DNA of 64,000 nucleotides from Gammaproteobacteria bacterium (GTDB taxonomy: Bacteria; Pseudomonadota; Gammaproteobacteria; Pseudomonadales; Azotimanducaceae). The stretch covers positions 1 to 64,000 of the forward strand of contig DUBB01000025.1 of NCBI GenBank assembly GCA_012960535.1, in the 5' to 3' direction. A program made the position numbers and the translations under genes. Below the pieces are notes generated by a model. That model saw nothing but the letters and a program-made list of their open reading frames with translations. It had not been told where the DNA came from and searched no databases. Positions 2,496 to 41,192 of the stretch are shown in pieces. Position 1 is the stretch's first letter, and every line of letters starts with the position of its first letter.

Positions 2496-4061
2496 ATGGT
2501 CGACAGATCGCGCCGGCGCCACGGGGGTGCTCGCGCTGCACGCCTCAGAATGCGCGAGGATGCAGCCAGTAAGAGCCCGGTGCATGCTGGCCTGATCGGT
2601 GGTGCCTACAAGCCGTTGCAGCAGGCTGACCTGGAAAAAATTCATCAGACCGCGCTAGAAGTGCTGGCAACCATCGGTATCGGTGAGCCTACTGCCGAGG
2701 TGGTCGAGTATGCCACCGCCGCCGGTTGTCACATCGATAAAAATGGGCGCCTGTGTTTTCCTAAAACTCTGATTGAGGACGTCATTGCTGGCGCGGCGCG
2801 CGAGTACACCATTTACAGCCGTAGCCCTACGCACGCCGACGTGCTGGTCGGTGGCTATCACGTCAACTATGCCACCAGCGGCGAAGCCGTGACCATATAT
2901 AAAGCTGACGAGCGCCGGTTTCGCCCATCGACGTTAGTGGATCTATACGATCTCGGGCGCCTCACCGACAGGCTCGATCACATTCACCAATTCGGCCAGA
3001 TGGTAATCCCGACCGAGCTGAAGGATCCGTATGAGCATGACTTGAATGTTGCTTATGCGCTTTGCGCCGCCACGCAGAAACCCTGCGAAATGGCTTTTAG
3101 CGACGCGCACAACGTGCGCCCTGCAATTCAGATGTTCGATATGGTGCTCGGTGGAGAGGGACGTTTTGCAGAAAAACCGTTCCTGTCGTTTGGTGGTTGC
3201 CCCATCGTCTCGCCTTTGCGTTTCGGTGAGGACAACCTAGATCTGCTGGTCGAAACCAGCAAACTGGGTCTGATCAATGACATTGCAATTGCGCCGCAAG
3301 CGGGTGCCACAGCGCCAGCGGCACTGGCTGGTTCGCTGGCGCAGGTTACCGCTGAGGGACTTGCGTGTCTGGCGATCGTCAACATTATCAACCCGGGCTG
3401 CCCGATGACCTTTGCAATCTGGCCGTTTATCTCAGACCTGCGCACCGGCGCGTTCAGCGGTGGCAGTGGCGAGGAAGCACTGGCAATGTCGGCTTGTGCG
3501 CAACTGGGACGATTTTACGATTTACCCACCAGCGTCGCTGCCAGTATGACTGACTCCAAGCTGCCGGATGCGCAGGCAGGTTTCGAAAAAGGCATTACCG
3601 CGGTTAGCGCTGGCCTTGCGGGTGCCAACCGTATTCTCGAATCAGCCGGCATGCTGGGTAGTTTGATGGGCTGTAGCTTTGAGAGTTTGATGATTGATAA
3701 CGATATGCTTGGTATGGCCCAGCGGGTAGTCGCCGGTATCGAGGTCAATGACGAAACCCTGTCGCTAGACGTTATGCGCGAGGTTGCATTGGGCCCCGGG
3801 CATTACCTCGGTCACCCGCAAACGCTCGAATTGATGGAAACCGATTATCTCTACCCGGAACTTGCTGATCGTTCTGCTGCCGGCACCTGGGAACAGGAAG
3901 GCAGCCTCGATATCATGCAGCGAGCGCGTGACGGGGTACAGCAGACGCTATCGACCCATTATCCGGTAACTATTGATCCGCGAACCGATGCTGCGATTCG
4001 AAATCGATTTCCGATTAAGCTGGCACGGCAGGACATGCAGATAGGTAACGGACGCTGGTAA
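2496..4061 (+). CDS. MttB-superfamily (trimethylamine/betaine-type) corrinoid methyltransferase, non-pyrrolysine
   Basis: This is a 521-residue member of the trimethylamine methyltransferase (MttB) superfamily. It opens with the Arg/Gly-rich RRRHGGARAAR stretch common in bacterial members and continues with the long TIM-barrel body. Archaeal MttB needs an in-frame amber codon for pyrrolysine; none occurs here, so it belongs with the non-Pyl group that includes glycine betaine methyltransferase MtgB. Such enzymes pass a methyl group from a quaternary amine to a corrinoid protein. No corrinoid-binding or MtrH-like partner gene lies nearby, so the substrate is open. The coding sequence looks richer in G+C than its neighbours and lies between two relics beside a tRNA, suggesting acquisition. 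The ribosome-binding site (AGAGA) is weak. Confidence 0.85.
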   Translation: MVDRSRRRHGGARAARLRMREDAASKSPVHAGLIGGAYKPLQQADLEKIHQTALEVLATIGIGEPTAEVVEYATAAGCHIDKNGRLCFPKTLIEDVIAGAAREYTIYSRSPTHADVLVGGYHVNYATSGEAVTIYKADERRFRPSTLVDLYDLGRLTDRLDHIHQFGQMVIPTELKDPYEHDLNVAYALCAATQKPCEMAFSDAHNVRPAIQMFDMVLGGEGRFAEKPFLSFGGCPIVSPLRFGEDNLDLLVETSKLGLINDIAIAPQAGATAPAALAGSLAQVTAEGLACLAIVNIINPGCPMTFAIWPFISDLRTGAFSGGSGEEALAMSACAQLGRFYDLPTSVAASMTDSKLPDAQAGFEKGITAVSAGLAGANRILESAGMLGSLMGCSFESLMIDNDMLGMAQRVVAGIEVNDETLSLDVMREVALGPGHYLGHPQTLELMETDYLYPELADRSAAGTWEQEGSLDIMQRARDGVQQTLSTHYPVTIDPRTDAAIRNRFPIKLARQDMQIGNGRW

Positions 4062-36928: not shown

Positions 36929-37038
36929 AGTTGTAATTTATATCATCTTGTGAGCAGAGGATTGTAACAGTGAAAATGGGATTACGGCATTACCTGATAT
37001 GATTTGCAATTATTGGGTAACTCAGCATAGAATTAATC

Positions 37039-37090
37039 AGCGCCGATTTGACTATCAGCTTGCGGGCGCTTTAAGAAATTCCGCTAAAGT
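37039..37090 (+). promoter_or_regulatory. SAM-II-like riboswitch aptamer
   Basis: AGCGCC (37039-37044) and GGCGCT (37065-37070) form P1. GATTTG follows the 5' strand, TTGCG precedes the 3' strand, and TTTAAGAAATTCCGCTAAAG runs after it. The order (stem, GATTT, TTGC, stem, TAA, GCTAAA) matches the compact SAM-II pseudoknot that binds S-adenosylmethionine. The gene downstream is a methionine/cysteine PLP enzyme, as expected. The pseudoknot pairing in this copy needs a covariance-model check. Nearly all SAM-II examples I know are in alphaproteobacteria. Confidence 0.78.
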
Positions 37091-37096
37091 GTTCTG

Positions 37097-37124
37097 ACCC
37101 GCTTTAATGGCGGGTTTTTTTTTT
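37097..37124 (+). terminator. Intrinsic terminator between the riboswitch and its gene
   Basis: ACCCGC and GCGGGT pair around TTTAATG, followed by nine T. It lies 16 bases before the ATG, so it must act within the leader. The aptamer's 3' strand CCGCTAAAG (37081-37089) can pair with CTTTA and GCGG (37102-37106 and 37110-37113), an alternative that would prevent the terminator. Confidence 0.9.
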
Positions 37125-37139
37125 GCTTGGAGAAAGGCC

Positions 37140-38360
37140 ATGGGGTTTTCGTCTAAAATTCTACACGCGGATAGGCGATTCGAAATTGAGCATGGTTCGG
37201 TACATAAGCCGATCCACACATCGGTAGCTTATACCTATAATGATTCAAGAGAATTGGCCAGAGTGTTTCAGGGAAAGCAGGCAGGTTATAGCTACGGTAG
37301 GCAAGTCAACCCAACTGTTGATGCTCTGCAGAAAAAAATATCATTGATGGAAGATGGCCTGGCATCCATTGGTTTTGCAACCGGCATGAGTGCGATAGGG
37401 ACTACGATATTCTCCTTGCTGCGGGCAGGGGATCATATTGTTACTTCACAGTTTCTATTTGGGAATACCAACAGCCTGTTTCAATCGTTTGCTGCACACG
37501 GCATCAAAGTCTCTTTTGTGGATGCGACCGACGTTACCAATGTTGAGGCGGCATTAACAGCTGAGACAAAACTTGTATTTACTGAAACAATCGCAAATCC
37601 ACGAACACAGATTTCCGATCTGTATCGCATCGGTGAGCTGTGTAGGCAAAGGCAATTGCTTTATGTTGTTGATAATACACTTACATCACCCTATCTCTTT
37701 AAGGCTAAACTCGCTGGCGCTAGTCTGGTCATTAATTCGCTGACTAAATATATTGGTGGCCATGCAAATGCACTGGGTGGATCGGTTACTGAAACAGGTC
37801 TGTTTGAATGGCAGGCATTCGAAAATATTTATGATAGTTATCGGGTCGGCGAACCTGGATTGTGGGGTTTAAATCAGATTAAGAAAAAAGGTCTCAGGGA
37901 CTTCGGCGCCACGCTAAGTGCTGAGGCTGCCCATCACCTTTCCATCGGTTCTGATACTCTAGCATTAAGAATGGACCGGGCCTGTGATAATGCTGGCAAA
38001 TTGGCGGTTTTCTTTGAAGACCATGCGAGAGTAAAGAAGGTTCATTATCCGGGCTTAACTGGCCATCCTGATTACATAAGAAGTAGAGAATGGTTCCGTT
38101 ATCCAGGTGCAATACTGAGCATTGAATTAGAAGATGATTTGGATTGTTTCGATTTCTTAAATTCACTTGATTTAGTGATTTGTTCCAGTAATCTGGGTGA
38201 TACTCGCACGCTTGCAATTCCTGTAGCGCATTCGATATTTTATGAAGCTGGTGCAGACAAAAGGGCGGATATGGGCATAGCTGATTCTTTGGTTCGTTTT
38301 TCCGTTGGAATTGAAGAAAGTGAAGATCTGCTCATGGACTTTGAGCAGGCTTTAGCCTAG
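37140..38360 (+). CDS. Cystathionine gamma-synthase family PLP enzyme (methionine/cysteine metabolism)
   Basis: This 406-residue member of the Cys/Met metabolism PLP family has YSYGRQVNPTVDALQKKI near residue 50, GFATGMSAIG, VVDNTLTSPYLFKAKLAGA, and the PLP lysine in SLTKYIGGHANALGG. It may be an O-acyl-homoserine sulfhydrylase, a cystathionine gamma-synthase or a lyase; the sequence alone does not separate them. ATG 37140 is preceded by TTGGAGAAAGG; a frame open from 37107 would start inside the terminator and is rejected. SAM-II-like control upstream argues for methionine biosynthesis. purC follows 39 bases later. Confidence 0.9.
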   Translation: MGFSSKILHADRRFEIEHGSVHKPIHTSVAYTYNDSRELARVFQGKQAGYSYGRQVNPTVDALQKKISLMEDGLASIGFATGMSAIGTTIFSLLRAGDHIVTSQFLFGNTNSLFQSFAAHGIKVSFVDATDVTNVEAALTAETKLVFTETIANPRTQISDLYRIGELCRQRQLLYVVDNTLTSPYLFKAKLAGASLVINSLTKYIGGHANALGGSVTETGLFEWQAFENIYDSYRVGEPGLWGLNQIKKKGLRDFGATLSAEAAHHLSIGSDTLALRMDRACDNAGKLAVFFEDHARVKKVHYPGLTGHPDYIRSREWFRYPGAILSIELEDDLDCFDFLNSLDLVICSSNLGDTRTLAIPVAHSIFYEAGADKRADMGIADSLVRFSVGIEESEDLLMDFEQALA

Positions 38361-40058: not shown

Positions 40059-41192
40059 ATGTTTAGATTCGATGAACTGGTAGATAGACAGGGAACCGGC
40101 AGCAAGAAATGGGATAAATACCTGGGTCAACCAGTGATTCCGATGTGGGTTGCTGACATGGATTTCAGGTCACCGGAACCTGTGATGGAGGCGATACACA
40201 GGCGAGTTAATCACGGTGTATTTGGCTACAACGAGATCCCTAAGCAATTGTTAGAAGTCGTCGTAGCAAGGCTAAAGCATCGTTATAACTGGGTTATCCA
40301 GGAGAGCGATGTCATTTTTTCTCCTGGCCTGGTGCCCGCTTTGAACCAGGTATGTCGAGGCCTAGTAAGCGAGAACGGGGCTGTGATTACGGCGATTCCT
40401 GTCTACCCACCGTTTCTAGATGCACCTGGTAATATGGGCAAGGAGCTCATTACGCTTGAAATGAAAGAAGATGAAAGCTGGCAATTTCCTGTCGAAGAGT
40501 TTGCCCGTCAGGCAGAGATCAGACCTGATATTGACTTGCTGCTGCTGTGTCATCCACTTAATCCGCTGGGGCGGATGTTGAGTGTGGCCGAAATGCAGGA
40601 CATCGTGGCTATTTGCAAGCGCTTCGATATTAAAATCTGTTCGGATGAAATCCACTGTGAATTAGTACTTGATGGTCGCCAGCATACTCCGATTGCGTCA
40701 CTTGGCCCGCAGGCTGCTGAAATGACCATTACGCTTATGGCTGCTTCCAAGACCTTTAACCTGGCAGGGTTAGGATGTGCCATGGCTATCGCTGAAAACT
40801 CGCTGCTCAGAGATCAATACCGAAAAGGTGGCGAGGGTATTATGGCCAATGTAAATACCTTCGGTTTTGTAGCGACTGAAGCCGCCTGGACTGATTGTTC
40901 AGATTGGCATGAGGCGTTGCTTGATTATCTTGCAGCTAATAGAGATTATGTTTATGAGAGATGCCAGATGATTACGGGTATTAGTGTTAACTGGGTTGAG
41001 GCAACTTATCTAGCCTGGCTGAATGTTCAGGAGTTGGGTTTGCCTGACCCGCGCAGTCACTTCGAACAGGCAGGTGTAGGTTTGTCATCTGGGGCTGATT
41101 TCATGGGGCCAGGTTATATGAGGCTTAACTTTGGATGTCCCAGGCCTTTGTTGGAAGAAGGCCTCAACCGGTTAGAAAAAGCCTGTAACTGA
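40059..41192 (+). CDS. MalY/PatB-family PLP aminotransferase or cystathionine beta-lyase
   Basis: This 377-residue fold-type I PLP enzyme opens MFRFDELVDRQGTGSKKWDKY, with PMWVADMDFRSPEPVMEAI, typical of MalY/PatB C-S lyases. The PLP lysine is in MAASKTFNLAGLGCAM near residue 230, and DEIHCELV carries the Asp that contacts the pyridine nitrogen. It probably cleaves cystathionine, returning homocysteine, which would tie it to the sulfur theme around it. E. coli MalY also modulates MalT; no such link is visible here. Confidence 0.9.
   Translation: MFRFDELVDRQGTGSKKWDKYLGQPVIPMWVADMDFRSPEPVMEAIHRRVNHGVFGYNEIPKQLLEVVVARLKHRYNWVIQESDVIFSPGLVPALNQVCRGLVSENGAVITAIPVYPPFLDAPGNMGKELITLEMKEDESWQFPVEEFARQAEIRPDIDLLLLCHPLNPLGRMLSVAEMQDIVAICKRFDIKICSDEIHCELVLDGRQHTPIASLGPQAAEMTITLMAASKTFNLAGLGCAMAIAENSLLRDQYRKGGEGIMANVNTFGFVATEAAWTDCSDWHEALLDYLAANRDYVYERCQMITGISVNWVEATYLAWLNVQELGLPDPRSHFEQAGVGLSSGADFMGPGYMRLNFGCPRPLLEEGLNRLEKACN

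Follow-up and report, generated by a model that had tools for sequence, protein, structure and literature searches.

The window is the whole 64,000-nucleotide stretch of gammaproteobacterial DNA that was analysed. On its forward strand, a gene of the cystathionine gamma-synthase family is preceded by a leader that holds a promoter-like sequence, an aptamer, an intrinsic terminator and a Shine-Dalgarno-like motif (Table 1). Membership of NF004609 makes the gene a target in the methionine/SAM pathway and is a family label, not an exact reaction. The name MetZ (O-succinylhomoserine sulfhydrylase, NF006003) was rejected at 278.4 bits against a cut-off of 522, and the MetZ models were all under their cut-offs for the protein from 37140. 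The terminator loop holds an in-frame ATG (37107), which was also rejected as the start, since position 5 of the NF004609 profile aligns with residue 2 of the protein from 37140 and most of the listed homologues are 406–413 aa long. The gene is among six near-full-length PF01053 profile matches in its own genome. It is followed by purC on the same strand and then msrA on the opposite strand, and a PatB family C-S lyase (TIGR04350, 405 bits, cut-off 340), a sulfur-amino-acid enzyme, lies three genes downstream at 40059–41192. Elsewhere in the window, 3546–3645 matched Rfam PYLIS_3 (the pyrrolysine insertion sequence of mttB; 54.6 bits, cut-off 38); the aligned start has no UAG, so this is probably an mttB-like gene without pyrrolysine.

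Table 1. Features of the leader and its gene in the window.
Feature	Position	Strand	Basis
Promoter-like TTGCAA-18-TAGAAT, directly 5' of the aptamer	37004..37033	+	pattern; position of the -10-like hexamer in order leaders
RF00521 SAM_alpha (SAM-II) match	37030..37108	+	41.2 bits, cut-off 36
P1, 5' strand	37039..37044	+	sequence, alignment A1
Loop with GATTTG (37045-37050) and pseudoknot 5' strand CAGCTTGC (37056-37063; CTTGC 37059-37063)	37045..37063	+	RF00521 consensus
P1, 3' strand	37065..37070	+	sequence, alignment A1
Putative antiterminator, 5' strand	37081..37091	+	11 bp, 3-base bulge, -11.3 kcal/mol
Pseudoknot 3' strand GCTAAAGTG (including GCTAAAG 37083-37089)	37083..37091	+	RF00521 consensus CGCUAAAg
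Intrinsic terminator: 8-bp stem 37096-37116, T run 37115-37124 (ten U)	37096..37124	+	sequence, folding
Putative antiterminator, 3' strand (CGCTTTAATGGCGG)	37100..37113	+	explicit structure, duplex calculation
Shine-Dalgarno-like GGAG	37129..37132	+	sequence
Cystathionine gamma-synthase family gene (NF004609), 406 aa	37140..38360	+	651.8 bits, cut-off 555

Aptamer and terminator in the leader

The covariance model RF00521 (SAM_alpha, SAM-II) aligned end to end with its match (E 7.2e-6 over 64 kb), and the SAM-II-like aptamer proposed in the sequence-only reading was thereby confirmed. P1, GATTTG, CTTGC, GCTAAAG, the terminator, GGAG and the ATG were all found where that reading had placed them. 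The P1 stem and the blocks GAUUUG, GCUUGC and GCUAAA are present, and the inner base pairs of P2, the pseudoknot, are presumably those of standard SAM-II pairing. The model for SAM-II with a long loop (RF01726) gave 18.2 bits on the leader, under its cut-off of 44. An aptamer that no longer binds SAM, or that binds a related ligand, is highly improbable here. The score is just 5 bits above the RF00521 cut-off, and the outer P2 register of the relatives is incomplete: the pairs L1-3:+8 and L1-4:+9 are weakly supported by a swap test in relatives, and the window forms the first and has U-U at the second. Against such a loss or change of ligand, the consensus blocks GAUUUGA, GCUUGC and CGCUAAAG are all retained, and the SAM-V, SAH and SAM/SAH models had no match in the leader up to E 1. 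By all tests run, 37030–37108 is a SAM-II riboswitch, for which the sensing of SAM is predicted.

The terminator with its U tract had a folding energy of -13.2 kcal/mol (z -4.8), and none of 200 shuffled sequences was as good. The strong terminator described earlier is thus present, and the gap between its T run and the ATG at 37140 is 15 bases rather than the 16 first given. The upstream gene, for an M18 aminopeptidase, lies on the opposite strand, which means that the terminator is not its own and must be assigned to the leader. The promoter-like sites found, two against a shuffle mean of 1.6, were alone no better than chance. A -10-like hexamer occurred at the equivalent place in 42 of the 48 leaders collected from the same order (shuffle mean 15, maximum 23).

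Putative antiterminator and mode of control

The sequence-only reading had paired the 3' strand of the aptamer with the terminator across a three-base bulge. This pairing exists and is longer than described, because the extra pairs U37090-G37101 and G37091-C37100 extend it from nine pairs (-6.3 kcal/mol) to 11 pairs between 37081–37091 and 37100–37113. When the bulge was free to move, the duplex of 37081–37091 with 37096–37116 reached -12.4 kcal/mol, a value attained by 3 of 1000 dinucleotide shuffles of the terminator; the longest unbroken helix, of 7 bp, was not significant alone and was reached by 9.5% of 200 shuffles. In the explicit-structure comparison the terminator had -12.9 kcal/mol, a difference of 1.6 from the antiterminator. 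This value lies inside the range of the 32 order leaders with an intact complement of GCUAAA (median 2.0, range -2.7 to 7.7), among which the window is not counted since its own complement is interrupted. In a leader of the same genus (L006), a C at the position of U37090 turns the G-U pair into G-C and gives -11.9 kcal/mol. The antiterminator of the window is a compact, shortened derivative of the conserved CUUUAGC element, and its details are less certain than those of the family.

Taken together, the region 37039–37124 is very probably a SAM-II aptamer joined to a terminator, a predicted transcriptional OFF switch for the gene at 37140, and SAM-induced termination is the best model. When SAM is scarce, 37081–37091 would pair with 37100–37113, which would occupy parts of both terminator arms and let the polymerase read through. 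When SAM is plentiful, 37083–37091 would be held in the pseudoknot and the antiterminator would be blocked; the terminator would then fold, and transcription would stop 5' of the ribosome-binding site. A point against the model is that, at full length, the minimum-energy folds of the leader combine the terminator with a structure other than the aptamer; read-through would then require kinetic control. Known SAM-II elements include OFF-switch candidates with terminators, as described in the available parts of PMC1273637 and PMC2258182. The OFF model is also consistent with the second SAM-II copy of the same genome, which lies 5' of a metA-like ORF, and with the lack of a MetJ match there, an absence that is not certain because the genome is 93.6% complete.

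The same OFF switch might instead work through the 3' strand of P1, with 37062–37066 pairing with 37098–37102 and 37067–37073 with 37085–37091. Such an antiterminator could form before the 3' arm of the terminator exists and would break both P1 and the pseudoknot. At -12.2 kcal/mol it is about as stable as the main antiterminator, and transcripts with their 3' end at 37103–37109 had it as their minimum-energy fold. In the window transcript cut ahead of the terminator's 3' arm, upstream pairing of the 5' arm amounted to 0.55, of which the P1 3' strand took 0.29 and the aptamer strand 0.24. The relatives point the other way: in 44 order leaders cut likewise, the 5' arm was paired upstream at a mean of 0.69, with 0.59 for the aptamer strand versus 0.05 for the P1 3' strand. 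This route is therefore considered unlikely, and pairing by the aptamer strand is preferred.

A second alternative is a fixed attenuator, or an action of SAM on translation or RNA stability, with the antiterminator pairing incidental. In 4 of the 48 order leaders the aptamer stands without a detected terminator, and the SAM-II element of Sinorhizobium meliloti metA is reported to combine translational control with mRNA stabilisation (PMC9373788, available part). Three points count against this alternative: in the window the ATG lies 49 bases past the 3' end of the pseudoknot, none of the helices considered includes GGAG, and the antiterminator covaries in the order. The probability left to this alternative is very small, and SAM-induced termination is retained below.

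The platform and its distribution in relatives

Leaders were gathered in three sets, 48 from the same order, 29 from a phylum sample and 118 from a pattern scan of named genomes (among the matches listed). These 195 are what was left of 204 places once duplicates, one spurious place and those having an N close to the element had been taken out; among the loci L001–L204, four (L044, L045, L049, L050) had no core readable by the pattern, and the 118 rows keep some second places per locus that resemble the core by chance. Within 150 bases, 44/48, 27/29 and 84/118 leaders, respectively, had a terminator, the last among the matches listed. A strong complement of GCUAAA occurred in 66 of these 155 terminator leaders, always overlapping the hairpin (order 32/44, phylum sample 0/27, named scan 34/84, the last again among the matches listed). 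In most relatives of the order, an intact CUUUAGC in the terminator probably fills the role proposed for the window. Two leaders of the same genus and gene family (L003, L018) had no long complement of GCUAAA. Whereas GCUAAA is the strand that pairs with the terminator in the order leaders, a GGCCGG-type strand pairs instead in many of the phylum sample.

Covariation, which had been proposed as a check on the antiterminator helix, was found in part of its columns. In a swap test that takes no account of kinship, columns +6 and +7 of the order set paired better than in 1000 of 1000 swaps and column -1 better than in 973, and the flank columns -2, -3 and +8 did not exceed the swaps. The other set had an excess at +7 and +8 (1/1000 swaps each) and none at +6. 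The pairing GCUAAAG/CUUUAGC is an example; metK leaders have GCUAAACAG/CUGUUUAGC instead. In Marinomonas (L031–L037, L040, L041, L043, L047, L051, L055) the aptamer lies 5' of metK (SAM synthetase), and the antiterminator strand there, CUGUUUAGC, matches without a mismatch. Among the 30 best-scoring loci of the class, whose fractions lean towards canonical copies, 26 had a terminator and 22 of the 26 the complement; among 28 loci of a family sample, the figures were 25/28 and 23/25, and L271 and L272 of this sample had no readable core. The predicted family antiterminator, an intact CUUUAGC within the terminator, is thus clear. Both the covariance score and the relatives, in which the same arrangement recurs, support the logic of terminator and antiterminator and the target gene first read from the letters.

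At E<=0.001, RF00521 had matches in every one of 15 searched genomes from the own genus (the source genome included), in 6 of 22 from elsewhere in the family and in 1 of 21 from the rest of the order, a total of 22/58. Broader searches gave 43 of 390 order genomes at this threshold with 16 above the cut-off, and 84 of 398 genomes of the phylum sample with 70 above it. A subtype model, R1, was built from 106 aptamers, the window's own among them, so the R1 score of the window is no independent test. R1 matched 184 of the 369 gammaproteobacterial genomes of the class sample (168 at E<=1e-7), 71 of the 390 order genomes (53 at E<=1e-7) and 31 of 81 genomes of the own family. Genomes whose best R1 match was worse than E 1e-7 are doubtful (counted by eye, 16 in the class, 18 in the order, 1 in the family), and several of these matches cover model positions 4–32 only. 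Two genomes of the class sample (G1014, G1122) carried 10 and 6 R1 matches, unusually many SAM-II copies. By ORF reading, the downstream genes were metA and gamma-synthase in the own family, metK in a single genus, Marinomonas, and, in two further families, a gene for a transporter ATPase resembling metN.

The pattern scan of named genomes returned at least 119 stretches, by title mostly from beta- and gammaproteobacteria with some from alphaproteobacteria; since most columns of the core are fixed in the pattern, alignment A1 is invariant partly by construction. The matches listed also included three Acidimicrobiia bins (L117, L134, L204), one Planctomycetota and one Deltaproteobacteria bin. 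A binning error is possible for the Acidimicrobiia, in two of which (L117, L204) the core is followed by an apparent homocysteine methyltransferase ORF. Halomonas leaders carried two SAM-II-type aptamers in tandem (L048, L104). Those of L048, at G410:C21:133931-133987 and 134042-134098, had R1 E values of 1.8e-12 and 2.2e-17, and the second aptamer of L104 was recognised by eye. A literature text search found no paper in which SAM-II, riboswitch and Halomonas occur together.

Many genomes of the class sample and each of the 15 searched in the own genus carry the element, with a second copy 5' of metA in the source genome, so the transfer suggested by the sequence-only reading is not supported and would not be needed to explain its presence in this lineage. 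Spread beyond alphaproteobacteria, the other suggestion, was partly in print in 2005, 2007 and 2009 (PMC1273637, PMC2258182, PMC2704228). In its available part, PMC2258182 gives SAM-II in gammaproteobacteria and also in Bacteroidetes, suspects transfer, and describes terminators as frequent in alpha- and betaproteobacteria; the available part of PMC2704228 gives SAM-II in alpha-, beta- and gammaproteobacteria. The riboswitch of the window is an unexceptional representative of its class, which is less confined to alphaproteobacteria than the name implies. Moreover, the Rfam threshold hides many copies of the own order (16 of 390 genomes above the cut-off against 71 by R1). Methionine regulation in many beta- and gammaproteobacteria may consequently be listed as unknown despite a known riboswitch.

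Comparison with known systems

The metXZ element of betaproteobacteria was presented in 2014 as a new element without a known ligand; it has two interleaved helices and a terminator, and it lies 5' of metX in 30/35 genomes and 5' of metZ in Methylophilales, Nitrosospira and Thiobacillus (PMC4239095, available part). The window has the same arrangement of interleaved helices and terminator, a likeness judged from the description, and its SAM-II subtype occurs at metX and metZ places. Among the matches listed, 28 of 93 named places, from which those classed as alphaproteobacterial or other are excluded, lay 5' of metX by a motif rule that misses some metX and left 29 of the 93 unlabelled; metZ-like ORFs followed in Nitrosospira (L098) and Novimethylophilus (L087). 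That study applied Rfam profiles to 199 proteobacterial genomes and, in its available part, gives SAM_alpha in Rhizobiales and Rhodobacterales only. Six metX/metZ leaders had RF00521 scores of 26.5 to 36.9 bits, five of them below the cut-off, which would explain how SAM-II was missed there. From placement and description, the metXZ element is probably SAM-II overlooked because of the Rfam cut-off. In a literature text search, metXZ and SAM as whole words occurred in no paper other than PMC4239095.

RF02424 (Burkholderia sRNA Bp2_287) matched SAM-II leaders and their terminators on the opposite strand at 9 of 12 loci scanned (L002, L048, L104, L166, L187, L087, L098, L142, L155; 26.3 to 39.3 bits, cut-off 70). 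This family may be filed on the wrong strand.

A broader view is somewhat more likely than not: SAM-II would be a major and old methionine regulator of gamma- and betaproteobacteria (about half of the class), with one shared platform in which a terminator copy is complementary to the invariant SAM-binding strand, and metXZ and RF02424 would be the same riboswitch. The widely shared platform and the probable identity of metXZ are the more interesting parts, the aptamer class itself being already known. The window leader is a compact gammaproteobacterial SAM-II OFF-switch candidate with a consensus expression platform, so its mechanism could be read from sequence.

The system of PMC2704228 shares with the window a SAM-II element with a role at the level of transcription, as far as its available text goes; in the window, as a difference, the aptamer is single and SAM-V had no match up to E 1. 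The metZ riboswitch of S. meliloti (PMC9373788, available part) is likewise a SAM-II element for which termination induced by SAM is predicted, and it lies 5' of a gene for a related enzyme, whereas the gene of the window belongs to NF004609 and is not MetZ. With the metA element of Agrobacterium tumefaciens (RF00521; PMC1273637, available part), the window shares P1, the pseudoknot core, the consensus blocks, a promoter just 5' of P1, a methionine-pathway target and a terminator, but it belongs to a different phylogenetic subtype (P1 GCGCC/GGGCGC).
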